Shown piece after piece: positions 13,932 to 32,243 of a DNA stretch of 42,822 bases. The stretch lies in NCBI RefSeq assembly GCF_027484505.1, contig NZ_JAIXSV010000080.1:1-42822 (forward strand), written 5' to 3'. Position 1 is the stretch's first letter. Every line of letters starts with the position of its first letter. Both the position numbers and the translations under genes were made by a program. The notes under the pieces are model-generated. The model was not told the origin of the DNA. It was given only the letters and a program-made list of their open reading frames with translations, and made no database searches. Source of the DNA: Asticcacaulis sp. (GTDB lineage Bacteria; Pseudomonadota; Alphaproteobacteria; Caulobacterales; Caulobacteraceae).

Positions 13932-14049
13932 ATCAAGCGTTTTAATTCATGGCTGATGACGCGACGCCCGAAGTGTGTCCGTCGTCAGCCCCAGACCTCT
14001 ATCTGCCAGACCTCCATCTGACTGCATCCGTTCCTGCAAAGGCATCGTC

Positions 14050-17226: not shown

Positions 17227-17269
17227 AGCCTTGCCGATCTGATTTCATCAGATCGGCGCTCTGTATTTT
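17225..17269 (+). terminator. Terminator-like hairpin after the RND pump gene
   Basis: The stem pairs AGAGC with GCTCT and GCCGATCTGAT with ATCAGATCGGC (loop TTC), followed by GTATTTTT. The left arm begins at the pump stop codon. Because the outer-membrane channel gene follows within 100 bp, it may only attenuate expression of the third gene. Confidence 0.65.
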
Positions 17270-17275
17270 TGATTT

Positions 17276-17320
17276 GACGCACTTTTAATCCGAAAAGTGC
17301 GTCACACTTTTCGGAAAGTG
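17276..17320 (+). repeat. Alternative overlapping hairpins before the outer-membrane channel gene
   Basis: Three mutually exclusive pairings: GACGCACTTTT/AAAAGTGCGTC (17276-17303), CCGAAAAGTG/CACTTTTCGG (17290-17314), and CACTTT/AAAGTG (17305-17320). The last covers the GGAAAG Shine-Dalgarno (17313-17318) of the next gene. Similar CACTTTTCGG-rich palindromes recur at 42406-42474. Confidence 0.6.
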
Positions 17321-17325
17321 CTCTT

Positions 17326-18696
17326 ATGAAAAGCTCGTTTAAACTCGGTCTGATGCTTCCGGCCACGGCTCTGGTCCTCAGCGCCTGTACGCTGGCTCCG
17401 AAATATGAGCGCGGTACCCTGCCGGTCGCCGATCAGTTCCCGACGCTCGCCACGGCGCAGGGAGAGTCGGCGGAAACCCTGCCGTGGCAGAAGGTCTTCC
17501 TTGATCCGCGCCTGCAAAGCGTCATCTACGAGGCGCTGGTCAATAACCGCGACCTGCGCATCGCCACGCTGAATGCCGAGCGCGTGCGCGCCCAGTACAG
17601 CGTGCAGCGCGCCAGCCTGTTCCCTGGCGTCAATGGCACGGTCAGCGGCCGCCGCGGGGATACCGGCACTGGTACGGACACCGAGTCCTATAGCGCCGAC
17701 ATTGGGGCCTCCTGGGAACTCGACCTGTTCGGGCGGGTGCGCTCTTTGAGCAATGCCGCGCTCAACACCTATTTCGCCTCGGCCGAAAACCAGAAGGCGG
17801 CCAAGCTGTCGCTGATCTCGTCCGTGGCGACCGCGTGGCTGACGCTGGGCGCCGATCAGGAGCAGTTGCGCCTGTCGCGTGAAACCCTGCGTCTGCGCGA
17901 AGAGAGCCTGTCGCTGACGCAAAAGCGCTTTGACCTTGGGGCCACCGATGCGCTGGGCCTGCGTCAGGAGCAGACCCTGACCGAACAGGCGCGCGCCGAT
18001 GTGGCGCAACTGGAAGCGCTGGTGCAGCAGGACAAAAACGCCCTGCGTCTGCTGGTGGGCGTTGAGGTCGAAGCCGCCAATCTGCCGAATGCGCTGCCGG
18101 AAAACGCGGTGCTGAGCGACCTGCCGGTCGGCCTGCCGTCGGAGGTGCTGCTGAAGCGTCCGGATGTGGTGGCCGCGGAGTTCGACCTGAAGGCCGCCAA
18201 TGCCAATATCGGGGCCGCGCGCGCCGCCTTCTTCCCGCGCATCTCGCTGACCGGCGCGGTGGGCAAGGCCTCTACCGACCTCAACAAACTGTTTGACGGC
18301 GCCGACACCTGGAGCTTTGCGCCGTCGATCTCGGTGCCGATCTTCGCCGGCGGGGCCAATATCGCCGGGCTGGAAAGCTCGAAAAAGGCGCGGGATATTG
18401 CGCTGGCGACCTACGAAAAGTCGATCCAGACGGCGTTCCGCGATGTGGCCGACGCGTTGGCCGTGCGCTCGACGATCGACACGCGCCTGACAGCCCAGAC
18501 CCGCGTGGTCGAAGCCGCCAGCGAAACCGAAGCCCTGTCGCGCGCCCGCTTCGATCGCGGCGTGGATTCGCGCCTGACCCTGACCGACGCCCAGCGCACC
18601 CTCTATGGCGCGCAGCAGGGCCTGATCACCACGCGCCTGACGCGGGCGCTGAACCTGACGCGACTGTACGCGGCCACGGGCGGCGGCCTGCAATAG
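17326..18696 (+). CDS. Outer-membrane efflux lipoprotein, NodT/OprM family
   Basis: Trimeric outer-membrane channel component of 456 residues that completes the tripartite pump. Lipoprotein signal peptide with lipobox LSAC (Cys21). Typical NodT-family blocks: WQKVFLDPRLQSVIYEALVNNRDLRIA, ASWELDLFGRVRSLSNAAL and the LLKRPDVVAAEFDLKAANANIGAARAAFFPRISL-type block (about residues 279-311). The repeat-half equivalent near the C-terminus is RFDRGVDSRLTLTDAQRTLYGAQQGL. GGAAAG lies 7 nt upstream of the ATG. It ends the efflux operon, with a terminator hairpin about 25 nt downstream. Confidence 0.95.
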   Translation: MKSSFKLGLMLPATALVLSACTLAPKYERGTLPVADQFPTLATAQGESAETLPWQKVFLDPRLQSVIYEALVNNRDLRIATLNAERVRAQYSVQRASLFPGVNGTVSGRRGDTGTGTDTESYSADIGASWELDLFGRVRSLSNAALNTYFASAENQKAAKLSLISSVATAWLTLGADQEQLRLSRETLRLREESLSLTQKRFDLGATDALGLRQEQTLTEQARADVAQLEALVQQDKNALRLLVGVEVEAANLPNALPENAVLSDLPVGLPSEVLLKRPDVVAAEFDLKAANANIGAARAAFFPRISLTGAVGKASTDLNKLFDGADTWSFAPSISVPIFAGGANIAGLESSKKARDIALATYEKSIQTAFRDVADALAVRSTIDTRLTAQTRVVEAASETEALSRARFDRGVDSRLTLTDAQRTLYGAQQGLITTRLTRALNLTRLYAATGGGLQ

Positions 18697-18721
18697 ATTT
18701 GTTGCGACGCTTTGCGCTTTG

Positions 18722-18765
18722 ACCGCCTGAGGGAACCGGAATATCGTTCTCTCAGGCGGTTTTTT
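18722..18765 (+). terminator. Intrinsic terminator whose 3' arm holds the next gene's Shine-Dalgarno
   Basis: The stem pairs ACCGCCTGAG with CTCAGGCGGT and a few inner bases, followed by six T. The ATG of the next gene begins two bases after the T-tract. AGGCGG in the 3' arm lies 8 nt before that ATG. Confidence 0.85.
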
Positions 18766-18767
18766 GT

Positions 18768-19433
18768 ATGATCTCTCTCAATCCCCATCTCACCCTGACG
18801 GTTCAGTCTCTGGGCCATGAGGCGCAGCCCCTGATCATCGTCGATGAGGTGCTGAGCGACCCGCAGGCCCTGATTGCCGAAGCCGATGCGGCGGCCTTTC
18901 GTAAGCCCGCGCCCGGATCGCGCTATCCCGGCCTCAATGCCCCCTTGCCACAGGCCTATAAGACGCTGGTGGCAACGGCGCTTCTTCCCCGTCTGTTGCC
19001 GCATTTTGGTGTGACGCCGCAGCCTTTGCCGCTGTTCGGCTTTTTCGGTGTGGCCACGCAGGCCCCAGACGATATGGACGTGCGGCAGGCCGCCCCGCAT
19101 ATCGACGCCTTCAGCCTCAACAGCTTTGCCAGTGTGCATTATCTGTTTGAGGGGGATCTGGGCGGCACGGCCTTTTTCCGCCATCGGGCCAGCGGGCACG
19201 AACTGATCACCCCCAGCCGCAGCTATGGCTTTGAGCGCGCCAAACGGCAGGAACTGGATGGTTTTGACGGCAGCGGCGAGGCGGCACGGGCGCAGTTTTT
19301 TGAGCCCATTGCCGCCATTGAACCGCGCTTCAACCGGCTGATCTTTTACCGGGCGGGACAAATTCACTACGGTCAGGTGCAGGCCGGCAGCCCGCGCCGC
19401 CTGACGGCCAATTTGTTCTTTGGTATCCGATAG
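18768..19433 (+). CDS. DUF6445-family protein, possible 2-oxoglutarate/Fe(II)-type oxygenase
   Basis: A 221-residue protein recognised as DUF6445-like, a family often found near tryptophan-halogenase and TonB-receptor genes in Caulobacterales and Xanthomonadales. No function is established. The N-terminal block PLIIVDEVLSDPQALIAEAD leads into SRYPGLNAPLP. The centre contains PHIDAFSLNSF (His111-x-Asp113), then VHYLFEGDLGGTAFFRHR. The C-terminal block is RLIFYRAGQIHYGQV (His200) and RRLTANLFF (Arg210/211). An HxD...H...R order with GGT.FF is what 2OG-Fe(II) oxygenases show, so such a fold is inferred. The start codon follows a terminator U-tract by 2 nt; the only Shine-Dalgarno-like bases are in the hairpin. 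It converges on the cupin/halogenase operon. Confidence 0.78.
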   Translation: MISLNPHLTLTVQSLGHEAQPLIIVDEVLSDPQALIAEADAAAFRKPAPGSRYPGLNAPLPQAYKTLVATALLPRLLPHFGVTPQPLPLFGFFGVATQAPDDMDVRQAAPHIDAFSLNSFASVHYLFEGDLGGTAFFRHRASGHELITPSRSYGFERAKRQELDGFDGSGEAARAQFFEPIAAIEPRFNRLIFYRAGQIHYGQVQAGSPRRLTANLFFGIR

Positions 19434-19480
19434 CTACTATTAAGGTGGGATGATTTTAGGTGGAAACGGTTTAGCCCTTT

Positions 19481-19510
19481 AGCGCCTCCCCTGATTTCAG
19501 GGGAGGTGCT
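19481..19510. terminator. Hairpin between convergent DUF6445 and cupin genes
   Basis: A 14-bp stem (AGCGCCTCCCCTGA with TCAGGGGAGGTGCT, one wobble pair) and a TT loop. No strong T-tract on either side, so it may be a weak bidirectional terminator or a fragment of the GGGGAGG-type extragenic repeat seen at 42195-42330. Confidence 0.5.
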
Positions 19511-19554
19511 TGAATTACGATTCCATCAAAAGTCATACCGATCTAGTTTTGGAC

Positions 19555-20544
19555 TCACTTAAAGGCCGCCGCGATTTCGGCTTTCAGCGCTTTCAGCCGT
19601 TCGGGGGTCAGTTCGCCATAGGCCCCACGCACCTGAGGCGGCAGATGCGCCATGGCCGCTTCGCTGTCGCCAAAGATAAACAGATCGAACATGTGACGCC
19701 AGACGGCCTTTTGTTCGTCCGGCAGGTCCCTCAGCGCCACCAGCGCCGCCTTGAAGGCCAGTCTCGGCAGGGGACGGGTAGCGTCCGCGTCGTTCCACCA
19801 GTAATTGATGAGGGCATTGAAGGGGGCCAGTGACTGCACCTGATGCCACCAGCCATAGGGGATGTAGAGGGCGTCGCCGGGTTCTAATTCCGCCACCTGC
19901 GCACTGTCCAGCGCCGCCCGCAGCCGGGGCCAGCGCGCGAAATCCGGGGTGCGGATGTTGGGCAGGCTGAGCGGCGCGCCGCCGGGGGTAAAATCGTCCG
20001 GGCCGGGGTAGAGATTGACCTGCTGATCCGGTGGGAACAGGGTGAAGCGGCGGCGTCCGGCTACGACGCAGGCGATATTGTGCATCAGGTCGTAATGGGT
20101 CTGCGTGGCCACATCGGTGCCCAGCCACAGGCGCGGCTGCACCTGCGGTGGCAGCAAGGGCATGATATGCGCCTCGGCAAAACGCGGCAGGTAGGTTTCC
20201 GTGGGCAGGGACTGCACGTAATAGCCGCTGCCGTCGGTCGGCGGGGACAGCAGCCTTGGCCAGATGTCTTCGAGCCATTGCGACGTGGTGCGAAAATTCA
20301 CGCCGGTCAGGGTGGCGTCATAATGGCAAAGCCCGTTCGCTTCGGGGGGCAGGATGGACAGCGGCACCTTCAGCCCGGCATCCAGATCGGCCAGCAGCGC
20401 CGTGACGGCCTGATCCGACTGCCGGGCGGCGGCCACGATGGGCCAGTCCGCCACCAGTTGCTTCAGGACGACCGGTTGTGCCGCCGCTTGCACAGCCGTA
20501 AAGGCTTCTGCCGTCACGGCCTCTATCGTGCGGACGGGTGTCAT
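19555..20544 (-). CDS. Cupin-like JmjC-fold protein (cupin_8), putative hydroxylase
   Basis: A 329-residue member of the cupin_8/JmjC group of Fe(II)/2-oxoglutarate oxygenases, some of which hydroxylate protein or peptide side chains. The metal site is visible: His150-Tyr-Asp152 in TQTHYDLMHNIACVVAGRRRF and the distal His234 in YIPYGWWHQVQSL. Other family features: N-terminal PVVLKQLVADWP, PRLWLG before the HxD, and FTLFPPDQQVNLYP. It is the last gene of the halogenase operon; its start overlaps the halogenase stop by 4 bp (ATGA). A paralogue with the same order of motifs lies at 29210-30214, at the opposite end of the cluster. Substrate unknown; a shared substrate with the halogenases is inferred from the operon only. 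Confidence 0.88.
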   Translation of the reverse strand: MTPVRTIEAVTAEAFTAVQAAAQPVVLKQLVADWPIVAAARQSDQAVTALLADLDAGLKVPLSILPPEANGLCHYDATLTGVNFRTTSQWLEDIWPRLLSPPTDGSGYYVQSLPTETYLPRFAEAHIMPLLPPQVQPRLWLGTDVATQTHYDLMHNIACVVAGRRRFTLFPPDQQVNLYPGPDDFTPGGAPLSLPNIRTPDFARWPRLRAALDSAQVAELEPGDALYIPYGWWHQVQSLAPFNALINYWWNDADATRPLPRLAFKAALVALRDLPDEQKAVWRHMFDLFIFGDSEAAMAHLPPQVRGAYGELTPERLKALKAEIAAAFK

Positions 20545-22067
20545 CCGGCGCTGGCCAGGCGCATCTTCAGGTCGGCGGAGGGCGCGAAGCGGCGCACATA
20601 GTCTTCGTGGGCGGGCAGGCTGTCGGCGCGGCTTTCCAGCATCTTGCGCCAGCGGCTCATGTGCAGGCGCAGATCGGCGGCCTCGATCGTCTCCACAATC
20701 GGGTGACTGGTTTTCGGCAGCAGTCCTTGCCCCATCATGACGGCCAGCCAGCTCGTCTCCCGGAACAGTTCTGGTTCGCGCGCGATCAGAAGCGCCGTTT
20801 CGCGGAACATCTCCAGCCGCTCTTTCAGGCTGTCTGGCATCTCCATGGCCTGCACCCAGCGCCAGAAGGGCGTGTCGTCGCGTTCGCTGATCTTGTAGTG
20901 GGCGATCAGGAAGTCTTTGATATTGTTGTAATCGAACAGGACGTCGCGATTATATTGCGCCACGACCGAAGGCACGATCCCCGTCCGGGGGAAGAGGGCC
21001 AAAAGGCGGGTAATGCCCGATTGCACCAGATGGATGGCCGTCGATTCCAGCGGTTCGAGGAAGCCGGAGGCCAGACCCAGCGCCACTACGTTCTTGTCCC
21101 ACACGCGCTTGCGGTGACCGGTGACGAATTTCAGCAGACGCGGATCGGCCAGAGGTGCGCCATCGAGGCAGCCGAGCAGACGCGTTTTGGCGTCTTCGAC
21201 GCTAAGGAACTGATCGGAGAAGACATAGCCGTTACCGGTGCGGTGTTGCAGCGGAATACGCCACGTCCAGCCCGCTTCGCGCGCCGTGGCGCGGGTATAG
21301 GGGGTAATGTCGGCGCCGCGTTCGCAGGGCACGGCCACGGCGCTGTTCATCGGCAGCCAGCGCGACCAGTCTTCGTAACCGCAGTTCAGCGTCCCTTCGA
21401 TCAGCAGGCCGCGGAAGCCGGAGCAGTCGATAAACAGATCGCCCTCAAGGCGACGCCCATCGGCGGTGACGACTGCCGTTACAAAGCCACTTTCGGGGTG
21501 CTGTTCGACGCTAACGATACGGCCTTCGTGGCGGGTCACGCCGCGCTCAGCGCTGTAATTGCGCAGGAATTTGGCATAGAGGACGGCGTCGAACTGAAAC
21601 GCATAGTTCAGACCGGGCTTGTCGCCATCGGCCGGCAGATGTCCGAAGCGCCCCTTATAGGCGGCGACGGTTTCCAGATTGAACTGCGTGTAGTCATACT
21701 CACCGCCCCGGCGGCGCCAGTCGGCCAGCCAGTAATGATGGAAGGGGAAGCTTTCGATTTCCCGCCCGCTGTGGCCAAAGGGGTGGAAATAGCTGTGCCC
21801 TTTGGCGCGCCAATCGACGAACTCGATCCCCAGCTTGTAGGTGGCGTTGGTTTCGCGCACGAAGGTGGCTTCGTCGATCCCCAACAGGTCATTGTATTTG
21901 AGGATGGGCGGGATGGTGGCTTCGCCGACGCCGACAATGCCGATTTCCTCTGACTCGATCAGATGGATATCGAGCGATTCCCCCAGCGTCTTGGCCAGGG
22001 CCGCGGCGGCCATCCATCCGGCGCTGCCGCCGCCAACGATCACGATCTTCCTGATGGTCTGTTGCAT
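20541..22067 (-). CDS. Flavin-dependent tryptophan halogenase-family protein (intact motifs), third in tandem
   Basis: A 508-residue FADH2-dependent halogenase-family enzyme. Family members form hypohalous acid at a flavin site and pass it through a tunnel to an aromatic substrate. Motifs: FAD loop VGGGSAGW (11-18), GEATIP (49-54), catalytic Lys78 in TNATYKLGIEF, WTWRIP (267-272, the WxWxIP halogenase signature) and Glu341-Ser342 in FLEPLESTAIHL, equivalent to PrnA Glu346/Ser347. The start at 22067 was chosen because the FAD motif begins 10 residues later; upstream codons fall inside the preceding gene. Spacing to that gene is 10 nt and it overlaps the cupin gene by 4 bp. No flavin reductase is nearby, so FADH2 must come from elsewhere. 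Related bacterial enzymes (BrvH, Xcc halogenases) act on free indole in vitro. Confidence 0.92.
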   Translation of the reverse strand: MQQTIRKIVIVGGGSAGWMAAAALAKTLGESLDIHLIESEEIGIVGVGEATIPPILKYNDLLGIDEATFVRETNATYKLGIEFVDWRAKGHSYFHPFGHSGREIESFPFHHYWLADWRRRGGEYDYTQFNLETVAAYKGRFGHLPADGDKPGLNYAFQFDAVLYAKFLRNYSAERGVTRHEGRIVSVEQHPESGFVTAVVTADGRRLEGDLFIDCSGFRGLLIEGTLNCGYEDWSRWLPMNSAVAVPCERGADITPYTRATAREAGWTWRIPLQHRTGNGYVFSDQFLSVEDAKTRLLGCLDGAPLADPRLLKFVTGHRKRVWDKNVVALGLASGFLEPLESTAIHLVQSGITRLLALFPRTGIVPSVVAQYNRDVLFDYNNIKDFLIAHYKISERDDTPFWRWVQAMEMPDSLKERLEMFRETALLIAREPELFRETSWLAVMMGQGLLPKTSHPIVETIEAADLRLHMSRWRKMLESRADSLPAHEDYVRRFAPSADLKMRLASAG

Positions 22068-22077
22068 CCGATAAACC

Positions 22078-23571
22078 CTATACAGTCGCTGCCCGTGATA
22101 CGGCATCCGGGGTGGGCATGGCCTCGACCTGCTTGCGCACATAGCCGAGGACCGTCTGAAAGTGGCGGATCAGGTCGGGTTCCGCAAGCTGATCGGCACG
22201 CACGTCATGGGTGGCGGGAAACAGCCCGTGGCCAAGGCCCGCGGCGATCCACCACGCCTCGTCGAAGGTTTCGTCATCATACACCGGCAGGTGACCACAG
22301 GCGGCAAACACCTCGCGCTTATAGGCCAGTTCCGGCGGCAGGCTGACGCTGCGCAGATGGTCCCAGACCGGCTGATCGCGGCGTTTGTTGAGGCTGTAGA
22401 GCCAGATCTGCGCATCGCGCAGACGCTCATAGGCCTGACCCACGGTGCGGTTGTACACAGCACGTTCCAGCCCGGCCGTATCCAGCGGGAACAGGGCCGT
22501 CAGGTGTGACAGACCGAGCAGCAGGGAGGGCATCCGCGCGCTGCCCAAAGGATCGAGCACGGTGGCGGCTTCGCCCAGCCCGATGACATTGCCCGACCAG
22601 GCCGGGCGGCGGCCCGCTTCAAAAGGCGTCACCGTCGCCTGCGGATGCAGGCTCATCTTCACCACCATGGCCGCGGCTTCGAAAGCCTCATCGTCAGACA
22701 GCTCGTCGCGGGTGTACACCTGCTGCACGGCGGTATAGTCGCGCAGCGGGAACAGTCCGGCCCAGCCTGACCGGAAGGCGGTGATCTGCGCATAGGCCGG
22801 AAGCGGCGTCGCGGGGGCTGTATAGGTGGTCAGCAGGCGATTAAAGGGCAGCCATTGCCGCCATGAGGTAAAGCCTGTCTCCGGCATCTGGCTGAGCAGG
22901 CGTGCGTCGCTGCCGGTGGTGTCGATAAACAGATCGCCCTCAACCGTTTGCCCATCGGACAGGACCACAGCGGTCATCTGGGGGCCCGTCACGACCGGTG
23001 ACACGTGCGCGGCGGGCAGATGCCGCACCCCCCGCTTCACCGCCACCTGCCGCAGCATTTCGGCATAGGGGGCGGCGGGCAGGTGAAAGCCGCGATCGGC
23101 GTCGGCAAAGCCGCTGAGGTCGGCGTCGGGGGTCAGCAGACGCCCCTGCTTGGCACAGGCGGCATTGATGGCGAAGTCCTCAAACGCCACGTTCATGCCT
23201 GAGGCGCGGGCCCGCAGCCACAGGTGGTGGAAGGGTACGTTTTGCAGGGCCACGCCCGTACTGGAATAGCCCACAAAGACCGGCGGCGCGGACTTCGCCC
23301 AGCCGACATATTGCTGACCCAGCGTAAAGGTCGCGCCCAGAGCCCGCATCAGCACCGCTTCCTCCAGCCCCAGACGGGCGTGGAAGCCGGCCTGACTGCC
23401 CAGCGTCGGCAGCACTTCGCCGGGGCGCAACAGGGACGGCAGCTCGACGGCGGTGAAGCTCAGATCGCTGCGGGCAAAGGTGCGTTGCAGCACCGCAGCG
23501 GTCAGCCACAGCGCCTCGTCGCGGCCGACGATGACGACCTTGCGCACCGGTCTGACGGGGGTATCAGTCAT
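22078..23571 (-). CDS. Tryptophan-halogenase homologue lacking catalytic motifs (putative pseudoenzyme)
   Basis: A 497-residue full-length homologue of the two flanking halogenases but without their active site. The FAD loop GGGxSGW is VGRDEALW (15-22). The catalytic Lys in NAT(F/Y)KLGIEF is Thr83 (GATFTLGQQYVGW). WTWRIPL is WAGLFPL. EPLEST is DPLGSA, so the catalytic Glu is Gly. Scaffold segments are kept: FHHLWLRAR, VEGDLFIDTTGSDARLL, NVIGLGEAATVLDPLGS and a family-like C-terminus (DEAWWIAAGLGHGLFP). The frame is open throughout, so it is not a decaying gene. It overlaps the upstream halogenase by 8 bp and is 10 nt from the downstream one, so all three should be co-translated. A structural or regulatory partner role is inferred; FAD binding looks unlikely. 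Confidence 0.85.
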   Translation of the reverse strand: MTDTPVRPVRKVVIVGRDEALWLTAAVLQRTFARSDLSFTAVELPSLLRPGEVLPTLGSQAGFHARLGLEEAVLMRALGATFTLGQQYVGWAKSAPPVFVGYSSTGVALQNVPFHHLWLRARASGMNVAFEDFAINAACAKQGRLLTPDADLSGFADADRGFHLPAAPYAEMLRQVAVKRGVRHLPAAHVSPVVTGPQMTAVVLSDGQTVEGDLFIDTTGSDARLLSQMPETGFTSWRQWLPFNRLLTTYTAPATPLPAYAQITAFRSGWAGLFPLRDYTAVQQVYTRDELSDDEAFEAAAMVVKMSLHPQATVTPFEAGRRPAWSGNVIGLGEAATVLDPLGSARMPSLLLGLSHLTALFPLDTAGLERAVYNRTVGQAYERLRDAQIWLYSLNKRRDQPVWDHLRSVSLPPELAYKREVFAACGHLPVYDDETFDEAWWIAAGLGHGLFPATHDVRADQLAEPDLIRHFQTVLGYVRKQVEAMPTPDAVSRAATV

Positions 23572-25081
23572 GGGAAATCCCGCTGTTCGGATCGTAGCAA
23601 TGGGCGGCCACAAACTCGGCGTGTGAGGGCAGAACGGCCAGATTGCTGTCGATCTTGCGTTTGAGGTCTTTCAGATAGCCCGTCAGGGCCTCTTCGCTTA
23701 AGCTATCGGCCTGCCGGTCGTAGGCTTGCGGCATGACGTCCTGCCCCATGAAGACGGCGATCCAGCTGGCCGGGGAAAACAGGCCATCCTTGTACTGCTG
23801 AACGTGGCCGCGGTGGCGGAACAGCGCCATCTTTTCTTTCAGGCTGTCCGGCACGGGCATGGTGCGCACATAGTCCCACAGGGGGCCTTCGCGCGCCGAA
23901 TTGGCGTGATAGTGCAGGATCAGGAAGTCGCGCACCCGCTCATACTCGATGTCGATCAGGCGGTTGAATTCCCGCGCTAGGGCCGGGTCAAAGCGCGTGT
24001 CCGGCATCAGGCGCATCAGGAAGGTCAGGGCGATCTGCGACAGGTAGATGCTGGTCGATTCCAGTGGCTCCAGAAAGCCGGAGGCCAGACCGAGGGCGAT
24101 GACGTTTTTGTGCCATGACGCCGTGCGGCGGCCGGCCTGAAAGCGCAGCAGGCGCGGCTCGGCCTGAGCGGGGGCATCCAGCGCACCCAGCAGCACCTCA
24201 CGCGCGCGCGCCTCCGTGGTGAAGCGGCTGGAAAACACATAGCCATTGCCGGTGCGGTGTTGAAGCGGGATGCGCCACGTCCAGCCGGCTTCGCGGGCGG
24301 TGGCGCGCGTATAGGGCGTCAGGTCGTCGGTACGTTCGCACGGCACGGCCAGCGCCCGGTCGCACGGCAGCCACGGCGTCCAGTCTTCCCAGCCCAGATT
24401 CAGGGTCTGACCGGCGATGACGGCGCGAAAGCCGGAGCAATCGATAAACAGGTCACCGCCGACGCTTTCACCACTGGCGAGCGTCAGTGTTTCAACAAAG
24501 CCGGTTTCAGCGTTCTGATCGACGCCGGTGACCTGCCCTTCGATGCGCTGCACGCCGCGCGCCTCGCACCATTGGCGCAGATAGCGGGCATAGAGGACGG
24601 CGTCGAAATGGTAGGCATAGGCATAGGCGGAACGGATCGACTTGGGGTCTTCGACCGGAAAATCGAAGCGGTTTTCGCGCGCCAGCCGGATGGGGAAGGC
24701 ATAGTCCTCGATGGAGCCGGGGTCCATGAAGGTGCGTGCCTTTAGCCACAGCTGATGGAAGGGGATGCCACCGGCCGACTGACCGTGGACGCCGAAGGGG
24801 TGGTGATAGCTGCCCGACGTGCCCCAGCCGCAGAATTCAATCCCCAGCTTGAAGGTGGCGTTGGTCGCGCGCATGAACTCGGCCTCATCAAGGCCAAGCC
24901 AGGTGTTGAAATCGCGCACCTGCGGCAGGGTGGCTTCGCCCACGCCGACAATGCCGATCTCTTCGGACTCGATCAGGCGGATGGTGCAGGCATCGGGTGT
25001 GAAGGCGCGGCTCAGCACCGCCGCCGCCATCCAGCCGGACGTGCCGCCGCCCAGTATAGTGATGTTGCGAATGGGGGTCAT
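23564..25081 (-). CDS. Flavin-dependent tryptophan halogenase-family protein (intact motifs), first in tandem
   Basis: A 505-residue halogenase-family protein, first gene of the four-gene operon. Motifs: LGGGTSGW FAD loop (10-17), VGVGEATLP (46-53), Lys78 in TNATFKLGIEF, WTWRIP at 267-272 and Glu341-Ser342 in FLEPLESTSIYL. The spacing of these residues is identical to that in the third gene, so the two are close paralogues. They diverge in the 90-150 region and at the C-terminus, which may reflect different substrates. GGGG and AGGG stretches lie within 15 nt of the start. The upstream 318 bp contain the terminator of the TonB receptor gene, so expression needs its own promoter or read-through. 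Halide and substrate preference cannot be read from the sequence. Confidence 0.93.
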   Translation of the reverse strand: MTPIRNITILGGGTSGWMAAAVLSRAFTPDACTIRLIESEEIGIVGVGEATLPQVRDFNTWLGLDEAEFMRATNATFKLGIEFCGWGTSGSYHHPFGVHGQSAGGIPFHQLWLKARTFMDPGSIEDYAFPIRLARENRFDFPVEDPKSIRSAYAYAYHFDAVLYARYLRQWCEARGVQRIEGQVTGVDQNAETGFVETLTLASGESVGGDLFIDCSGFRAVIAGQTLNLGWEDWTPWLPCDRALAVPCERTDDLTPYTRATAREAGWTWRIPLQHRTGNGYVFSSRFTTEARAREVLLGALDAPAQAEPRLLRFQAGRRTASWHKNVIALGLASGFLEPLESTSIYLSQIALTFLMRLMPDTRFDPALAREFNRLIDIEYERVRDFLILHYHANSAREGPLWDYVRTMPVPDSLKEKMALFRHRGHVQQYKDGLFSPASWIAVFMGQDVMPQAYDRQADSLSEEALTGYLKDLKRKIDSNLAVLPSHAEFVAAHCYDPNSGISHD

Positions 25082-25399
25082 CCCTGCTTCCCCTTTTTAG
25101 CTTCTGATGGGTGGGGTCTTTTTTTCAGAACGGCGATCTTAGAGGGTATTTTGAAAACTGTGAGGCCCTTTTTGGATAAAAAAGCGCGTCACTGTGTCTC
25201 ATCCCCAGAAGAATTGGCCCAGAAAAAAACTGGCCCAGATAAAAACAGGACGCACCACGTGTGATGCGTCCCGCAAGGGTTTCCGTGAATGACGGAGGGA
25301 GAGGCGCGCAGGGGTCGGAACCGCTGCGCGGGAGACGGGTCGTCCGGGAAAGAACGCCTCCCGGACAACCTCATCCTACCGTTTGGAACGCTGCACCGA
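25082..25399. promoter_or_regulatory. Intergenic region between TonB receptor and halogenase operon
   Basis: 318 bp without a credible gene. It holds the receptor's terminator (25241-25271), A/T-rich runs and one ATTTTGA heptamer (25148-25154). That heptamer also occurs in symmetrical pairs in the receptor's own upstream region. No clear -35/-10 pair was recognised. Confidence 0.5.
25241..25271 (-). terminator. Intrinsic terminator of the TonB receptor gene
   Basis: On the minus strand, GGACGCATCA pairs with TGGTGCGTCC (one wobble pair) around a small CACG loop, followed by TGTTTTTATC. It separates the receptor from the halogenase operon transcribed in the same direction. Confidence 0.75.
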
Positions 25400-28300
25400 T
25401 CAGAACTTCAGGCGGACCTGAGCCTGAATGCGGCGATCGTTCTGGAACCAGGCGTTCGGCAGCAGCAGGCGCGTATCGTTCGGGCTCGAATTGGTCGGGC
25501 CGTCAACCTGTTGCAGAAGAACGGTTTCGGTGTTGAGCAGGTTGGTGCCTTCGATCGACATTTCCACGTGATCGTTGAAGCGGTAGGCCAGACGGGCATC
25601 GAGATAGCCCGCCGACTTTTGCCAGATAGGCAGAGCGATACAGCAGTCCTGCGAGGTGACAAGATACGACGAGCGCCAGTTGTAGGCCAGACGCGCCGAC
25701 CACGCACCCTTTTCGTACATACCGACCAGGTTGAAGGTCTTGTCAGACAGGCCTTCCAGCGGCAGGTCGATAAAGGAGTTGGCCGCCACCGACGTACCGC
25801 CACCCGTTTGACCGGAGGTGCCGTCACCCGAGTTCACCACCACGTTCGTGGACTTGATGCCCGTATTGTTGAGCATGGTGTAGTTGAAGTCGATGCCGAG
25901 ACCGTTCCACGGGGAGGGCAGGTTGTCGAAGAAGCGCTTATAGGCCAGTTCCCAACCCTTGATGGCCCCACCGTCGCCATTGACCGGACCACGCATACGC
26001 ACCGAGCGGGTCACGCCCTGATTGGTGAAGTCGCGGAAATAGGTGCCGTAGGTGATGTAGTCGTGGAACTGCTTGTAGAACAGCGAGAAGGTGAACGAGC
26101 CGGTCGAGGAGAAGTAGTTTTCGAACGACAGGTCGAACTGATCCGCCGTCACCGGCTTCAGATAGGGGTTCTGGGCATCACCGGTATAGGTCATGACGAC
26201 CGACTGGATCTGACCGGCAGAGTTACACACAAAGCCCTTACCGCAGACGCGATCCGCTTCGTTCGGGAGAGCGGCATTAACGGAGGTATAAGCCTTCAGG
26301 TTACCGATATCCGGACGCGACATGGCGCGTGAGGCGGCCACACGCAGATACCAGGTGTCATCCAGCGTAATGCGCGCGTTGAAGCTCGGCAGCCAGTTCT
26401 TGTGCGTGATGCTGTAAACACTACGGGTATTGTTGACCGTCATGAAGTTACGATCAGCCTGCGGCACGTAGTACGATGCGTTGATAACCGTGACTTCACC
26501 GGCGGGGGTCTGCTGTTTGGACGTCGGCTCAGTTGCGTAGGCAATCTGGTTACCGAAGTTGATACCACCCGTGCTTTCGTTCTTCGTCTCGACGTAGCGG
26601 ACCCCGATGTTACCCGTCACCGGGAACTTGCCAAACAGCATCGCATCATCGCCCCCAAACTTCAGCTGGAGGTAGGCGGCGTTGGTGATTTCGGACACTT
26701 CGGCAATTTCAGACGGGCGGAAGCACCCATCCACCCTGCCCGAACGGCGGCAGACCGGAACCCAGACGTTCGACACGTTCCCATCCGGATCATATTTCGG
26801 ATTCGGGATCATCTTGGTCGGATCATTCGGGTCCGGAATAGTCTGGGGTTCGAGCGCGGCAGTGGTCCGCGGCTTATAGCTCGCACGACCAAACATATTC
26901 GCCAGACCTTCCTGATCCCTCAGGAGGTCCATGTTCAGGTAGACGGCCGTATTGGCATTGGTCAGACCACCACCATAGAAATCTTCGTCGAAGGAACGAA
27001 CACCATAGGCCGAAGCGCTGGGGAACTTGGCGCCTGTGATGAAGTAGTTCTCAGCGGTATACCCGGACCACGTGTTCACAACGTTAGCCCAGTTGTAGGT
27101 AGACCAGCGCACCGTCTGCTCACGCTCAGCATGGCGCACGCCGAACTTGATCATATTCAGCCAGGGCGAATCGAAGCTGTAGGCGGCGTCCGCACGCACG
27201 GCAAACTCATTACCGTCCGAGTCCGTGACGTGATCCATCAGATCGTTCAGGCGGTAGTTTTGCGGGTTGGCAACGTCGCCGGGCATCGTGACGAAGCTGG
27301 TCGGCTTTGCCAGCGTGAAGGTGGGATGTTCGCCCGTCATATCCCAGGTGACATCGGCAAAGGTCGAAAGCGTCCCGGCGATGTCATAGTTGGTCTGAAT
27401 GGCATCAACATACTGAACGTCGAAGCTGGTGAACAGCTTGTCCGTCACTTGCCACTTCAGGTTAAACGAGGCGTCCTTGGTGTCGTTGACGCTGTCGCTG
27501 AAGCGGGTCGAGGTGGCGTAAGACGTGCCCCGTTGTGAACCGCCGCAGCTTTCCCAAGAATAACAGACAAGGTTACCGGTCGGCGAGTTTGCACCGGGAT
27601 GGGCACCGATATTGCCATACCAAACATCAGACGAAGCTAAGAGCGTGCCCTTTTGCAGGAAACCGCTGGAGTCGAAGGTACAGGTGGTGCCGGTCTTGCA
27701 CTGGGTTTCATTTGCACCCGTGGCGAAGTACTCGATATCCTTGGCCCACATGTCGGTGCCGGTCGAAGCCGTCGAGACGTACTCTTCCCACTTTTCTTGC
27801 TTCTTCGACTGGTTGTACTGGAAGGTGGCGGTCATATTGCCGTCATTGCTCTTCCATTGGGCGGCAAAGGCCACGCCGTCACGAATGCGATTATAGATAT
27901 TGTCGCGCAGCGAAATCGAGGTCGGGTAGTAACGCTTGGCGGTCGTGCCCCAGGTGGCGGCGTTCGAGTGGATCGCCATACGACCCAGTTGCACGCCTTC
28001 CGAGTTGGTGAAGACTTCCGAATGAGCGGCGTTGATCATCACGCCGAATTCACCCAGCTCCGTGTCCCAGCGGTCGGCATAGATGCCCGACACCGAAGCG
28101 GCACCCTTACCGACGAGGTCGCCATAGGTATATTCAGCGGTTGCGGCCAGAACGCGGCCCTTCTGGTCGAACGGCAGGCGGGTACGCAGATTGACCGTAC
28201 CGGCGATACCGCCTTCGATCAGCTCAGCCGTCTGGTTCTTATAGACGTCCACGCCACCCATCAGTTCCGGCGACACGTCCGACCACGACAGACCGCGGTT

Positions 28301-28696
28301 GGAGTCGGCGGTGAAGATGTCGCGGCCGTTAAATTCCGAGCGCACCTGTTGCAGGCCGCGGACGACGACGCCCGACGGTTCAGCCGAGAAGTGCGCGGTA
28401 TCGCCGGTGGCGGCGAAGCGGTTGACCGTGATGCCGGCCACGCGTTGCAGCGCTTCGGCAACCGACTTGTCCGGGAAGGCCCCGATGTCATTGGCCGTGA
28501 TCGAATCGACGACCGTGTCGGCGTTCTTCTTGATCTGCTGGGCGCTCTGCAAGGCCTTGCGCGCGCCGACGACGACGACTTCCTGCGGTTCGCCTTCTGC
28601 AGGCGCGGTTTGCGCCTGTGCCGCGCCGGCCATAGCCACGCCGGCGGAAATCAGAAGCGCCATAGCCGAAACGCCGTGCTTCAACTTAACTGTCAT
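25400..28696 (-). CDS. TonB-dependent receptor with five cysteine pairs, halogenase cluster
   Basis: An outer-membrane receptor of 1098 residues. Signal peptide with cleavage after AQA (residues 1-28), then a TonB-box-like EVVVVGARKAL. Plug domain: DKSVAEALQRVAGITVNRF, VVVRGLQQVRSEFNGRDIF, PELMGGVDVYKNQTAELIEGGIAGTV-type block. A long barrel follows, ending QAQVRLKF. Ten cysteines occur as five close pairs (QCKTGTTC; VCYSWESC; VCRRSGRVDGC; VCGKGFVC; DCC), all in predicted loop regions, suggesting disulfide-stabilised extracellular loops. The start at 28696 has GGAGG 10 nt upstream; an ATG three codons earlier is possible. It is divergent from a JmjC/cupin gene and precedes the halogenase operon on the same strand, the usual context of such clusters. 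The ligand is unknown. Confidence 0.94.
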   Translation of the reverse strand: MTVKLKHGVSAMALLISAGVAMAGAAQAQTAPAEGEPQEVVVVGARKALQSAQQIKKNADTVVDSITANDIGAFPDKSVAEALQRVAGITVNRFAATGDTAHFSAEPSGVVVRGLQQVRSEFNGRDIFTADSNRGLSWSDVSPELMGGVDVYKNQTAELIEGGIAGTVNLRTRLPFDQKGRVLAATAEYTYGDLVGKGAASVSGIYADRWDTELGEFGVMINAAHSEVFTNSEGVQLGRMAIHSNAATWGTTAKRYYPTSISLRDNIYNRIRDGVAFAAQWKSNDGNMTATFQYNQSKKQEKWEEYVSTASTGTDMWAKDIEYFATGANETQCKTGTTCTFDSSGFLQKGTLLASSDVWYGNIGAHPGANSPTGNLVCYSWESCGGSQRGTSYATSTRFSDSVNDTKDASFNLKWQVTDKLFTSFDVQYVDAIQTNYDIAGTLSTFADVTWDMTGEHPTFTLAKPTSFVTMPGDVANPQNYRLNDLMDHVTDSDGNEFAVRADAAYSFDSPWLNMIKFGVRHAEREQTVRWSTYNWANVVNTWSGYTAENYFITGAKFPSASAYGVRSFDEDFYGGGLTNANTAVYLNMDLLRDQEGLANMFGRASYKPRTTAALEPQTIPDPNDPTKMIPNPKYDPDGNVSNVWVPVCRRSGRVDGCFRPSEIAEVSEITNAAYLQLKFGGDDAMLFGKFPVTGNIGVRYVETKNESTGGINFGNQIAYATEPTSKQQTPAGEVTVINASYYVPQADRNFMTVNNTRSVYSITHKNWLPSFNARITLDDTWYLRVAASRAMSRPDIGNLKAYTSVNAALPNEADRVCGKGFVCNSAGQIQSVVMTYTGDAQNPYLKPVTADQFDLSFENYFSSTGSFTFSLFYKQFHDYITYGTYFRDFTNQGVTRSVRMRGPVNGDGGAIKGWELAYKRFFDNLPSPWNGLGIDFNYTMLNNTGIKSTNVVVNSGDGTSGQTGGGTSVAANSFIDLPLEGLSDKTFNLVGMYEKGAWSARLAYNWRSSYLVTSQDCCIALPIWQKSAGYLDARLAYRFNDHVEMSIEGTNLLNTETVLLQQVDGPTNSSPNDTRLLLPNAWFQNDRRIQAQVRLKF

Positions 28697-29209
28697 GTGT
28701 TCAAGTCCTCCCTGACCGCTCTTCATCTCAAAAAAAGATTTCGGGGAGGCAAACAGCACGAAGGCGTCATCGCGCCTTGTGCACCTACTCTGGTGAGCTT
28801 CCCGAAACCTGCATCCACTTTTTTATTGCCCGCCAGTCACACGACCAGACGGGATTACACCACAGGCCTATGCCTGACAGCGCTGACAATTACAGAATTA
28901 TATCAACTCTGCGATTTTGAAAACGCATTAAACCAATTTGATTTCAAAATTATTGACCAGCGTTGTCATGAAAATCCGGTATCAGCCGAACTCCACGTAA
29001 AAAGGCCATAAATTACATTTGTTTAATCTTCAATATCGTTGATATTTTTTTAAAGTGAAGTGACGCATGTGTGCTTTTTGTGTCGCATTTCTTTTTTTCA
29101 GATGCGTCTCAAAATGCACATTTTGAACGATAAAAAGCCGCGCAGCCTTGACTTGCGGGGGTAGCGGGGTCGAATCTCCACGCCTTTACATGCGTATTCA
29201 GGAGGCCGG
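28697..29209. promoter_or_regulatory. Large AT-rich divergent control region (TonB receptor / cupin B)
   Basis: 513 bp without a credible gene, noticeably more AT-rich than its surroundings. It contains an inverted repeat with 9-bp arms ATTTTGAAA/TTTCAAAAT (28914-28950), AATATC-GTT-GATATT followed by a T-run (near 29032-29047), GACGCAT/ATGCGTC arms, and a perfect palindrome at 29109-29126. A TTGACT near 29148 could be a -35 element for the plus-strand cupin gene. Confidence 0.6.
29109..29126. promoter_or_regulatory. Perfect 18-bp palindrome, candidate operator
   Basis: TCAAAATGCACATTTTGA is fully symmetrical. It lies about 80 bp upstream of the cupin B start and within the receptor's upstream region. 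The binding protein is unknown. Confidence 0.6.
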
Positions 29210-30214
29210 ATGAGCCGCGAAGTGGAGGCACTGAGAGCTGCGGATGAGGCTGAGATACGCGCACGTATCCGCCGGGCAACCGCGCCGTTTGTCGTGCGTG
29301 GTCTGGTGGCGCAATGGCCGGCGGTTCAGCGGGCGCGGGAAGGGACCGCGGCGCTAGCGGCTTATCTGCAAGGGCTCGACAACGGTCGTCCCGCCGGAGT
29401 GCTGACGGCCAGTGCGCACCTGAAAGGCCGCTTCGGCTACACGCCCGATCTCGAAGCCCTGAACTTCAGTCACGCGCAGCAGACCCTGTCCGAGGTCATG
29501 GCGACACTGGTGCGCCTGAGCGGCCATCCGATGCCGCCGGGCCTCTATCTGCAATCGGCCCCGGCTCGCGACCATGCGCCTGAGTTCGCCGTGCAAAACC
29601 CTATGCCCTTGCTGCCGCCAGAGATCGGGCCGCGCCTGTGGATCGGCAATGCGACGCGGGCCGCTCTGCACAATGATCACGACCTCAACCTGGCCTGTCT
29701 GGTGGCCGGACGGCGGCATTTCCTGCTGTTCCCGCCGGAACAGGTCGGTAACCTGTACATCGGGCCTCTGGGCTACACGCCCTCCGGACGGCCGATCAGC
29801 ATAGCCGACCTCGATACGCCGGATTTTGAGACCTTTCCGCGCCTGCGTGAGGCTTTTGAACACGCACAGGCGGTGACGCTGGAGCCGGGAGATGTTCTGT
29901 TTATCCCGCGCTACTGGTGGCATCAGGTCACCGCCGAAGGGCCGGTGGGCGTGCTGGCCAATTTCTGGTGGGGCGGCTATGCGAATCCGCTGGAAGACCC
30001 GGCGGTGGTGTTCAATCAGGCGTTGGGCATTATGGCCGGGCTGAGCGAGGCCGATCGGGCCTACTGGCGCGAAATGTTCCGGCTGCACATTGCCGATCCG
30101 CGTCCGGCGCATTTTGAACATCTGCCTCCGGACGCGCGGCAGATGACCGAGGCGGAGCGTCGCGCGCTGGTTGCCAGCGTCGAACAGGCCGTGCGCGGTT
30201 ATATTTGTAAGTAG
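29210..30214 (+). CDS. Cupin-like JmjC-fold protein (cupin_8), paralogue of the 19555-20544 gene
   Basis: A 334-residue putative Fe(II)/2-oxoglutarate oxygenase. The metal site is His154-Asn-Asp156 in ALHNDHDLNLACLVAGRRHF and His238 in FIPRYWWHQVTAEG. The order PFVVRGLVAQWP, PMPLLPPEIGPRLWIG, HxD, FLLFPPEQVGNLYIGP, DTPDF, EPGDVLFIP, WWHQV matches the other cupin of the window block by block, so the two arose by duplication. AGGAGG lies 4-9 nt before the ATG, a strong Shine-Dalgarno. It is divergent from the cysteine-rich TonB receptor across a 513-bp control region. A role in hydroxylating the same substrate the halogenases act on, or a component of the receptor system, is inferred only from position. 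Confidence 0.88.
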   Translation: MSREVEALRAADEAEIRARIRRATAPFVVRGLVAQWPAVQRAREGTAALAAYLQGLDNGRPAGVLTASAHLKGRFGYTPDLEALNFSHAQQTLSEVMATLVRLSGHPMPPGLYLQSAPARDHAPEFAVQNPMPLLPPEIGPRLWIGNATRAALHNDHDLNLACLVAGRRHFLLFPPEQVGNLYIGPLGYTPSGRPISIADLDTPDFETFPRLREAFEHAQAVTLEPGDVLFIPRYWWHQVTAEGPVGVLANFWWGGYANPLEDPAVVFNQALGIMAGLSEADRAYWREMFRLHIADPRPAHFEHLPPDARQMTEAERRALVASVEQAVRGYICK

Positions 30215-30272: not shown

Positions 30273-30698
30273 TTACGCCTTGCGCGGCTTGCGGGCGGCC
30301 TGACGACCACCGGTGCCGAGGCCCATCTGCTTGGCGAGGTTCGAGCGCGCCGCGGCATAGTTGGGGGCGACCATCGGATAATCCTTCGGCAGGTTCCACT
30401 TGGCGCGGTATTCTTCGGGGCTCATATTGTACTTGGTGCGCAGGTGACGCTTCAGCGACTTGAACTTGCGGCCGTCTTCCAGACAAATGATGTAGTCGTC
30501 CGATATCGACTTTTTGATCGACACGGCAGGGGTCTTGGCTTCTTCGACCTTTGCTTCCGGTTCACCGGTCAGACCGCCCAGCGCCTTGTGCACCGAGTGA
30601 ATCAGAGCGGGCAATTCAGATGCGGGCACCGAATTATTACCGACATAGGCGGTGACAATATCGACAACCAGATCGGTCAGCTTGTTTTGTTCTTCCAT
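30273..30698 (-). CDS. mucR: MucR/Ros-family transcriptional regulator
   Basis: A 141-residue global regulator family of alphaproteobacteria that binds AT-rich DNA and often represses its own gene. Family core: DDYIICLEDGRKFKSLKRHL (residues 67-86), then YNMSPEEYRAKWNLPKDYPMVAPNYAAARSNLAKQMGLG. Only one cysteine (Cys72) is present in the finger region, so a classic two-Cys zinc site is not complete. The N-terminal half (TDLVVDIVTAYVGNNSVPASELPALIHSVHKAL) is the oligomerisation segment. The ATG at 30698 has AAGGA 9 nt upstream; a TTG two codons earlier is less likely. The lysine/arginine-rich tail (GRQAARKPRKA) may aid DNA contact. Confidence 0.93.
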   Translation of the reverse strand: MEEQNKLTDLVVDIVTAYVGNNSVPASELPALIHSVHKALGGLTGEPEAKVEEAKTPAVSIKKSISDDYIICLEDGRKFKSLKRHLRTKYNMSPEEYRAKWNLPKDYPMVAPNYAAARSNLAKQMGLGTGGRQAARKPRKA

Positions 30699-30825
30699 AA
30701 CCAAGAATCCTTGTTACCTTTCCTTCCCCAAAACAGCAGTTTGCCCGCGAAGTCAACTGAGCTGACATAAAAAATTGAAATAAATGCCGATATGGCGAAG
30801 TTTCCAGTGCGTGAAGCCCCGGATA

Positions 30826-30839
30826 ATTGTGTTCACAAT
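30826..30839. promoter_or_regulatory. Palindrome upstream of mucR
   Basis: ATTGTG-TT-CACAAT is a 14-bp symmetrical element about 130 bp upstream of the mucR start, inside a 228-bp gap. The rest of this gap is AT-rich next to the gene and holds no ORF I can support. Confidence 0.4.
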
Positions 30840-30926
30840 AGTATAGAGAAACAGACATTACTGCACCGCAGTGTCTATCCTTACGTGTGGCCGGATCGAT
30901 TTTGACTTAAGGGAAGGTGGCGGGCC

Positions 30927-32036
30927 TCAGGGGCGCGGCTGTAGCCCCCGCAGCGGATTGGCACGCGCCGCGACGCCGTCGGGCAGGCGGACCTGATAGG
31001 GGCTCCATTCGGTGCGCGGGGTGGGATAGTCGGTGGAAATATACTGCGCGCCCGAGGCCAGCGCTTTGGCGAAACGGCTGAGATCATTGCGGCGCGCCTC
31101 AATTGTCGAGTCATCGGCGCGGGTGCGCACCACAAAGCCCGCCTTCACCGCCGCCTGAATGCGCTCGAACTGTTTCACCGGGTCGTTAAGGGTGAAATAG
31201 GCGGCGTGGTCGGCGTCTTCTGAGACGGAATTGACGAAGACCGGCAGGCCCTCCAGCGAGGCATGGCCGCGCATATAGACGGCGACCTTTTGCGGGCCTT
31301 CGTCCAGCGCGAAGAAGACCTTGCCGCGCGCGGACTCAAGCGTAGGCCATCCGCCGGCCATCGCCCCTTCGCGCAGGGTTTTATGCCCGCCGCGCACCTG
31401 ATCCGGCGTGATCAGGCGCTCCGGCCCGAAGACCGAGCGGATTTCGGCGTCCAGCGCGTCGAAGGCCTTTGCGTCGTAATCGAGCGGTTTCACGCCGCCG
31501 TCGAGGCTGGGGGGACCATCCTTGGCGTTCATCATGATCAGCAGGGGGACGTGATCGGGGTGGGCGTCAGACCAGTCGCGGATCTGCTTCAGGCACTGCA
31601 CAAAGGTTTGGCAATGGCTGCGCACATCGGCATCGGGCATATGCAGCACCTTGAAGCCCGGCTTATCCATATCCGTGGCGTCATAGGGCGCGCCGCTGAT
31701 CTGCGGCAGGCGCGGGTGGGCGTAGCGCCCGCCGTCCGGATCGTATAGGAAGTCGATCTCAAGCTGACGCATCCCCAGATCGAGCTGCGTCGCCAAAGGC
31801 AGATGACCATAGTCGAGCGCCTTCGCCCCCTGTGCATTGCGCGCAGCGATCAGGGCCAGTTCCTTCGGCGGAATGGCGATTTTGTAGCTGTTGTGCGTGC
31901 CCACAGCCTGAAGGTCGTTCATGTGCAACCCGGCGGGTGCAGACGGTTCCAGCGACGGCTCTGCCGCGAGGACGGGCAGGGCGGTCACAGCCGCGACAAG
32001 CGCGACAATGGGCCACAGGTTCGGGCGACGGGTCAT
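30927..32036 (-). CDS. Secreted Ca2+-dependent phosphoinositide phospholipase C-like protein
   Basis: A 369-residue exported protein with a signal peptide (WPIVALVAAVTALPVLAAEP). The TIM-barrel PLC catalytic pattern is visible: general-acid/base His48 with the Ca2+-ligand Asn in VGTHNSYK, Glu93-x-Asp95 in QLEIDFLYDPDG, and the second catalytic His132 in FKVLHMPD. Downstream, VPLLIMMNAKDGP and GAQYISTDYP fit the bacterial Ca2+-dependent PI-PLC group. It would release inositol phosphates or related head groups outside the inner membrane. The start at 32036 has AAGGTG upstream. It is divergent from a TonB receptor (207 bp), suggesting coordinated degradation and uptake. Substrate is inferred from family. 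Confidence 0.86.
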   Translation of the reverse strand: MTRRPNLWPIVALVAAVTALPVLAAEPSLEPSAPAGLHMNDLQAVGTHNSYKIAIPPKELALIAARNAQGAKALDYGHLPLATQLDLGMRQLEIDFLYDPDGGRYAHPRLPQISGAPYDATDMDKPGFKVLHMPDADVRSHCQTFVQCLKQIRDWSDAHPDHVPLLIMMNAKDGPPSLDGGVKPLDYDAKAFDALDAEIRSVFGPERLITPDQVRGGHKTLREGAMAGGWPTLESARGKVFFALDEGPQKVAVYMRGHASLEGLPVFVNSVSEDADHAAYFTLNDPVKQFERIQAAVKAGFVVRTRADDSTIEARRNDLSRFAKALASGAQYISTDYPTPRTEWSPYQVRLPDGVAARANPLRGLQPRP

Positions 32037-32243
32037 GGGTTCACCTTCTCGGTTGTCAAAAGCCTCTGTAGCGCCCGTACCACGCCCGCATGACAAAATG
32101 ACGAGAAAACGCAACCGAACGGCATTAGGTGGGGGGTGTCATAAAACCGTATTTTTAGTGACAATACGCTTTCACAAATAAAACATACCTGCGCCTCAAT
32201 CCGCCGCGTCCTCCCCCTTTGCGGTGGCTATGGGAGCTATTTC
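32037..32243. promoter_or_regulatory. Divergent region PI-PLC / TonB receptor
   Basis: 207 bp, AT-rich in the centre (about 32140-32190). Promoters for both genes must lie here; none stood out clearly by eye. Confidence 0.4.

Follow-up and report, generated by a model that had tools for sequence, protein, structure and literature searches.

Gene arrangement at the halogenase locus

The window analysed here is a stretch of 42,822 nucleotides from Asticcacaulis sp. (NZ_JAIXSV010000080.1, contig C35 of a 4.66 Mb genome). Between positions 18768 and 30214 it carries seven genes, which encode a TonB-dependent receptor, three proteins of the flavin-dependent halogenase family, two Cupin_8/JmjC proteins and a DUF6445 protein. 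Coordinates and families had been assigned by a model from the sequence alone (the original prediction), and Pfam and TIGR matches confirmed them. We refer to the two intact halogenases as H1 and H3, and to the pseudo-halogenase encoded between them as psi. Genomes and further stretches of DNA are denoted by G and L numbers respectively. The features of the locus are:

18768-19433, plus strand: DUF6445 protein (PF20043, 170 bits), a predicted Fe(II)/2-oxoglutarate (2OG) oxygenase, convergent to the halogenase operon
19555-20544, minus strand: Cupin_8/JmjC protein B (Cupin_8, 198 bits), final gene of the H1-psi-H3 run, with a 4-nucleotide overlap with H3
20541-22142, minus strand: H3, intact flavin-dependent halogenase (Trp_halogenase, 615 bits), likely start near 22067
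22078-23613, minus strand: psi, pseudo-halogenase (Trp_halogenase, 285 bits), likely ATG start near 23571
23564-25081, minus strand: H1, intact flavin-dependent halogenase (Trp_halogenase, 610 bits), BrvH/Xcc4156-like
25245-25274, minus strand: terminator-like hairpin with a 13 bp stem and a T tail, between the receptor stop and the H1 start
25400-28759, minus strand: TonB-dependent receptor of the TonB-Xanth-Caul type (TIGR01782, 576 bits, cut-off 310), likely ATG start near 28696
27068-27091, minus strand: codons for W557 (YNW) to W564, subfamily-specific Trp residues where a long predicted loop begins
29210-30214, plus strand: Cupin_8/JmjC protein A (Cupin_8, 204 bits), divergent from the receptor

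Read along the minus strand, the receptor gene comes first, followed by ~320 bp with the hairpin and then by H1, psi, H3 and Cupin_8 B. The enzyme genes nearly abut: psi (at its likely start) and Cupin_8 B (at its start) each overlap the preceding stop codon, and the likely start of H3 lies ~10 bp past psi, a pattern expected of one operon. A single transcription unit for all seven genes, as first assumed, is contradicted by Cupin_8 A, which is divergent, and DUF6445, which is convergent, both being on the plus strand. The DUF6445 gene shares its strand with an outer-membrane efflux gene, begins 71 bp past it and, because of this spacing, may be transcribed together with the efflux pump. The reported absence of a flavin reductase and of a biosynthetic core was borne out for the 21 window proteins scanned against Pfam, a set that leaves other open reading frames of the window aside. 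The single PF01613 match of the genome is on a different contig.

An inactive halogenase relative between two intact enzymes

Motif comparison bears out that the two outer halogenases are intact and the middle one is inactive. H1 and H3 of the window retain GxGxxG, the catalytic Lys (located via K83 of BrvH), WxWxIP and EPLEST, the Glu of which has a role in halogenases. In the window psi, the catalytic Lys, WxWxIP, EPLEST and most of GxGxxG are lost, and fragments remain. This holds for the homologues: in an alignment of 267 halogenases each of the 49 proteins at the H1 position and each of the 40 at the H3 position has the 13 checked motif positions intact, whereas among 49 psi homologues only five keep the catalytic Lys, eight the third Gly of GxGxxG and three the second Glu of EPLE. 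By its sequence, psi is thus a member of the halogenase family by descent and not an enzyme of that kind. Within the genus its identity drops to 38% across nearly the full length. The ratios of non-synonymous to synonymous substitution rates (dN/dS) against three relatives are 0.10, 0.17 and 0.34 for psi and 0.06, 0.10 and 0.11 for H1, H1 and H3 together spanning 0.03–0.20. Judged by this divergence and by ratios of 0.10–0.34, psi is an old, maintained protein under purifying selection.

The phylogenetic tree was built from 267 proteins of 430–720 residues; stretches L001–L018 and proteins with identical C-termini were omitted. Among its proteins 58 lack WxWxIP, and 48 of these, together with one protein having the motif, form a single psi clade of 49 members (support 0.986). 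Loss of the motif alone is not special, because ten proteins without WxWxIP fall outside this clade. In all 49 cases an active halogenase directly precedes psi, and these 49 neighbours sit inside a clade of 67 members (support 0.996). H3 follows psi in 40 of the 49 loci and a receptor lies within 5 kb in 45; 22 of the 49 psi proteins come from loci outside the selection made by the halogenase scan described below.

We also searched 119 genomes of the family with the psi protein, a census in which lower-scoring psi relatives (e.g. in L077 and L203) are not counted. It revealed psi in 23 genomes, in 22 of them with at least 287 bits and in G249 in two pieces (262 and 261 bits); the next single-piece match has 257 bits. 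In all 23, a receptor closely homologous to that of the window lies 1.6–1.9 kb from psi. A census by profile had been discarded, because it did not separate psi from active enzymes by score and considered no more than four candidates per genome. The inactive middle protein, mentioned merely in passing in the original prediction, is the most distinctive part of the locus. Four or five halogenase genes stand in tandem at or near a receptor in L046, L080, L084, L087, L097 and L134.

Association of halogenases with a receptor family

The genome of the window encodes 11 halogenases in nine loci and 35 TonB-Xanth-Caul receptors above the cut-off. Such a receptor is found at most 2 kb away at eight of the nine loci. 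The chance probability per locus is 0.071 at a limit of 2.5 kb, which gives 5e-9 for at least eight of nine. The sole receptor-less locus (G000:C96:6182-7552, L026) encodes a protein without WxWxIP that falls outside the psi clade. When public genomes were scanned with an alignment of active halogenases, 63 of the best 80 loci had a receptor within 2.5 kb. Counted from the side of the receptors, 73 of 107 distinct ones are halogenase-linked, and 57 of these share a strand with the halogenase.

Conserved co-occurrence had been set beforehand as a test of the grouping, and the order receptor–halogenase–psi–halogenase indeed recurs across genera, on contigs of Caulobacter, Asticcacaulis, Aquisalinus, Sphingomonas, Sphingopyxis, Steroidobacteraceae and Cellvibrio. 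The H1-psi-H3 triad behind a receptor thus occurs in Caulobacterales, Sphingomonadales and some Gammaproteobacteria. The search for close receptor homologues, which scored no more than six candidates per genome, listed 40, of which 36 adjoin a halogenase, namely those of the window, L038, L039 and L047 and 32 of 36 further stretches. The remaining four (L194, L195, L207, L211) all belong to genomes with an H1-psi locus elsewhere. A search at class level, with two of 142 genomes retrieved, was too strict and was replaced by this search of family genomes. Pairwise distances of receptor, H1, psi and H3 correlate over 35 loci (r = 0.88–0.91), and partial correlations single out no one partner; a number of loci represent identical or closely related DNA (e.g. 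L069/L196, L071/L200, window/L047). The grouping is not local and represents a general receptor–halogenase association.

These data bear on the explanation that the enzymes have no specific halogenation target, being flavin oxidases, producers of hypohalite, or hitchhikers that mobile sugar-uptake loci have retained for long. Loci with a single linked halogenase are common, and the native substrate of the nearest relatives is not established according to excerpts of PMC7336383. Against this stand the intact motif positions in every H1 and H3 homologue, the low dN/dS ratios of H1, H3 and psi, and a gene order kept across Alpha- and Gammaproteobacteria, and we consider this explanation improbable.

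Papers on sugar regulons of Shewanella, Xanthomonas and Caulobacter reportedly list ‘tryptophan halogenase’ genes near receptors, so that the bare linkage may already be in print. Neither the linkage nor psi was found reported in the literature searched, partly as excerpts and with subscription journals mostly outside its scope. The term ‘TonB’ does not occur in the main text of the halogenase papers PMC5945002, PMC7336383 and PMC8269204, nor ‘halogenase’ in the receptor and sugar papers PMC1790865, PMC2996990, PMC11897816, PMC11658791, PMC7142613 and PMC3400609, among them the sugar-uptake study of Blanvillain (2007; main text). Both ‘tryptophan halogenase’ and ‘TonB-dependent’ are present in PMC11337851, PMC3377617 and PMC3684763, where the excerpts concern pyrrolnitrin genes or seawater transcripts and not receptor linkage; in its excerpts, PMC11337851 speculates on a halogenase in virus-receptor redox.

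Cupins and DUF6445

The presence of up to three Fe/2OG-type oxygenases, as originally proposed, agrees with our comparisons, by alignment with FIH over HxD..H for the two cupins and by motif and fold for DUF6445. Among solved structures both cupins come nearest to FIH, followed by JMJD5 and its relatives (for Cupin_8 B, FIH, JMJD5 and JMJD7). In both, the HxD..H triad, the residues of which we take to bind the metal, aligns with that of FIH, and the pattern is found in loose form in 47 of 47 cupin homologues. FIH, JMJD5 and their relatives hydroxylate proteins. They are animal enzymes, of which only ~110–130 residues align with the window cupins, and to our knowledge their substrates are unrelated. 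A Cupin_8 gene is located within 8 kb of psi in 27 of the 49 psi loci.

In DUF6445, residues H111, D113, H200 and R211 are invariant in 32 sequences. A search against PDB gave no significant sequence match for this protein. Its structural model (predicted local distance difference test score, pLDDT, 93.9) has the 2OG oxygenases PolD, HygX, OGFOD1 and NO66 as best Foldseek matches, with TM-scores to the query of 0.34–0.60 among the 50 matches listed. By motif and modelled fold, DUF6445 is a predicted Fe(II)/2OG oxygenase. It is encoded in 15 of 80 family genomes. We examined 20 stretches for 26 match rows, those of G069 and G041 having been dropped as partial. The proposed neighbourhood with halogenases was found for some of the genes: 15 of 23 have a halogenase gene within 6 kb and eight have none. 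A chance estimate for this proximity is rough, as it takes ten halogenase clusters per genome and treats the genomes as independent. DUF6445 is a frequent but not a fixed partner. In other genera (L030, L034 and L147) it overlaps a halogenase gene on the same strand, which suggests a two-gene unit there.

Variable glycan genes and the nature of the substrate

Receptor genes of this kind are known from the sugar-uptake loci of Xanthomonas and Caulobacter (CUT loci; Blanvillain, 2007). Similar to these, other halogenase loci of the window genome carry glycoside hydrolases (GH), sugar kinases and LacI/GntR regulators. The CUT combination of degradative enzyme, transporter and regulator is present in part at six of the seven other receptor-linked loci of the genome. 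It is absent from the window, where the 21 scanned proteins include neither a degradative enzyme nor an inner-membrane sugar transporter. For the other loci we selected 18 neighbouring proteins, plus one beside the cupin on contig C34 which had no match at all. The neighbours comprise, locus by locus, a ROK kinase with an MFS protein; LacI with GH2; a mannosidase-type GH2 with a BadF kinase; GH95 with GntR; GH127 and GH27-type proteins with GH97; and two GH29 with GH5 and GH39. At one further locus, SapC and Cupin_8 sit between receptor and halogenase.

The picture is the same around psi. Of the 22 neighbour clusters listed, ten were scanned by Pfam (the six largest and four picked as sugar-like). 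Nine belong to GH10, GH43, GH18, GH20, GH3, GH1, GH97, LacI and GntR-UTRA, the tenth being an efflux protein. Five of the six largest are glycoside hydrolases, and every cluster is near only three to six of the 49 psi loci. As the glycan genes vary while the receptor stays, the receptor, or something general, is a more probable common substrate of these loci than the cargo.

Modification of an imported aromatic or peptide substrate, suggested in the original prediction, is weakened by these unrelated surroundings (GH2, GH29, GH95, GH127, GH10/GH43, GH18/GH20, GH3, GH97). The enzymes would act either on such cargo or on phenolic groups of plant polysaccharides. Families for fucosidase, mannosidase, melibiase, chitin, xylan and GH97 (activities by family name) occur at linked loci, and many of these glycans have no expected aromatic part. 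Inspection by eye also revealed no obvious signal sequence on the halogenases. In favour of an imported ligand, the 21 scanned window proteins contain no glycoside hydrolase, and receptors linked to a triad are longer on average (1120 residues) than those linked to a single halogenase (974 residues). On balance, we regard an imported ligand as improbable.

A terminator-like hairpin is found in 33 of 74 receptor–halogenase gaps, some of them near-duplicates, versus 1.2 expected from dinucleotide shuffles. If the hairpin is an attenuator, receptor molecules would outnumber the enzymes, which is what one would expect if the enzymes serve an abundant protein.

The nearest PDB structures to H1, which keeps all checked motifs, are 6frl (BrvH), 9luq and 6y1w (Xcc4156). 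BrvH and the Xanthomonas enzymes are described without an established natural substrate in excerpts of PMC7336383 and PMC5945002. BrvH likewise lies beside a second halogenase gene (42.7% identity; PMC5945002, excerpts). In the excerpted texts, enzymes of this type were studied singly on free indoles and no inactive partner is mentioned. The free-tryptophan halogenases have Trp-binding residues of the YYEN type, and MibH, an enzyme with the Trp-halogenase fold, works on peptide-bound Trp (both PMC8269204, excerpts); MibH serves a lanthipeptide.

The main rival to a protein substrate is a diffusible product, a halogenated indole or other small aromatic acting as deterrent or signal and tied to feeding, with the receptor as a regulatory anchor only. 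According to the excerpts, BrvH adds bromine at C3 of free indole (PMC5945002), 3-haloindoles are the products of other halogenases from bacteria and metagenomes (PMC8269204), and a role in competition has been suggested for halogenase transcripts from seawater (PMC11337851). Several halogenases per genome could yield overlapping products, and the efflux gene ends 71 bp before DUF6445. The activity of BrvH on indole is low, however, and its authors doubt that indole is natural (PMC5945002, excerpts). No biosynthetic core is present among the scanned window proteins, and a diffusible product would leave unexplained why psi is fixed behind H1, why one receptor subfamily is involved and why FIH-like cupins are present. 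We consider it unlikely, if still a serious alternative.

Receptor residues as candidate target

We compared 73 halogenase-linked with 34 unlinked receptors, a few of the latter (L040, L085, L093) being cut by contig or stretch ends and possibly linked; numbering is from GTG 28759. The signature of linked receptors is mostly non-aromatic (S99, R146, N433, D447, and mostly Y or F at 173), and their Trp content is only slightly higher. Within the triad-linked receptors, W557 is present in 30 of 30 and W564 in 29 of 30, and both are rare outside the window-type subfamily. A figure of 74 of 74 from one receptor comparison is not independent, as selection there was partly on W557. In the receptor model (mean pLDDT 82.0) both residues are placed at the start of a long loop, which is probably extracellular. 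Foldseek matches of the model are siderophore and transferrin receptors with ~10% identity and give little information on the ligand.

W557 and W564 had been considered as the halogenation target. We do not claim them as such, because they are kept in all four close relatives without an adjacent halogenase. Their persistence there is compatible with modification in trans, which it neither proves nor excludes. The proposal that a receptor Trp is the modified site is thus possible but not demonstrated.

A proposed receptor-directed modification module

What is conserved is an old module of receptor, active halogenase, psi, usually a second halogenase and often an FIH-like cupin, in varied glycan contexts. 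We interpret it, from comparisons at the sequence level and with a rough probability of 0.38, as a receptor-coupled protein-modification module that includes a hetero-complex and is directed at the receptor. H1 and psi would form a cytoplasmic hetero-complex in which psi recruits or positions the substrate, while H1 and H3 generate hypohalous acid, with which they halogenate an aromatic side chain that is exposed. The likeliest substrate would be the receptor chain prior to export, since all receptor-linked loci have the receptor as their shared partner. Hydroxylation of the same target would fall to the FIH-like cupins and to DUF6445 at loci that have it, and the hairpin after the receptor gene would keep enzyme copies few per receptor. 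Such a modification could serve ligand affinity or stability, or help the cell to escape phages or toxins exploiting the receptor.

Several observations weigh against this interpretation. No aromatic position is specific to all 73 linked receptors as compared with the 34 unlinked ones, W557 and W564 persist in unlinked relatives, and their position at the foot of the modelled loop could equally suit sugar stacking. Within 2.5 kb, 17 of the best 80 loci have no receptor, six of them at contig ends and 11 away from ends. Of 145 distinct receptors, 40 were classed as linked to a single halogenase, some of these stretches ending before a possible psi. The distance correlations follow equally from shared descent. 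No cupin is found within 8 kb in 22 of the 49 psi loci, and DUF6445 is outside the operon and, in the eight genes mentioned, away from halogenases. The ten halogenase-family proteins that lack WxWxIP outside the psi clade count here too. Finally, psi is broken in two of 23 genomes: in G249 it is split over two overlapping frames, and in G239 an internal TGA interrupts it (broken psi at L186 4902-6403 and G239:C11:75121-76647). A sequencing error is possible there.

Of the earlier interpretation, then, conserved co-occurrence stands, imported cargo has lost ground and a receptor Trp is possible but unproven. The full proposal, in which a bacterium's own nutrient receptors of the outer membrane undergo halogenation (and hydroxylation) before export through a complex of an active halogenase and a dedicated pseudo-halogenase, is a tentative one that may well prove wrong. 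If true, it would represent a new class of bacterial protein modification and a native role for halogenases of the BrvH/Xcc type. The partnership with one receptor subfamily and the conserved dead paralogue offer a concrete candidate for the substrate and another for a missing subunit, and assays of H1-type enzymes without psi might be one cause of low activities. Halogenation would then join the modifications of outer-membrane proteins, which might explain the many halogenase genes outside biosynthetic clusters in some Proteobacteria.

Neighbouring genes

The region 11848-19433 encodes an efflux system, with an outer-membrane factor by homology, a resistance-nodulation-division pump by sequence look and a divergent TetR regulator. 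A pump gene is also near psi in L047, L182 and L143. On the other side (30273-35027), a second TonB-Xanth-Caul receptor gene and a gene for PI-PLC-C1 (Ca-dependent phosphoinositide phospholipase C) point away from each other, and a ROS/MUCR regulator adjoins them. Such a regulator and a protein of ~397 residues again adjoin the triad in L180–L182. The LacI-family protein encoded at 2715-3386, beside SDR and FMN-dehydrogenase genes, has only 223 residues and is apparently shortened.

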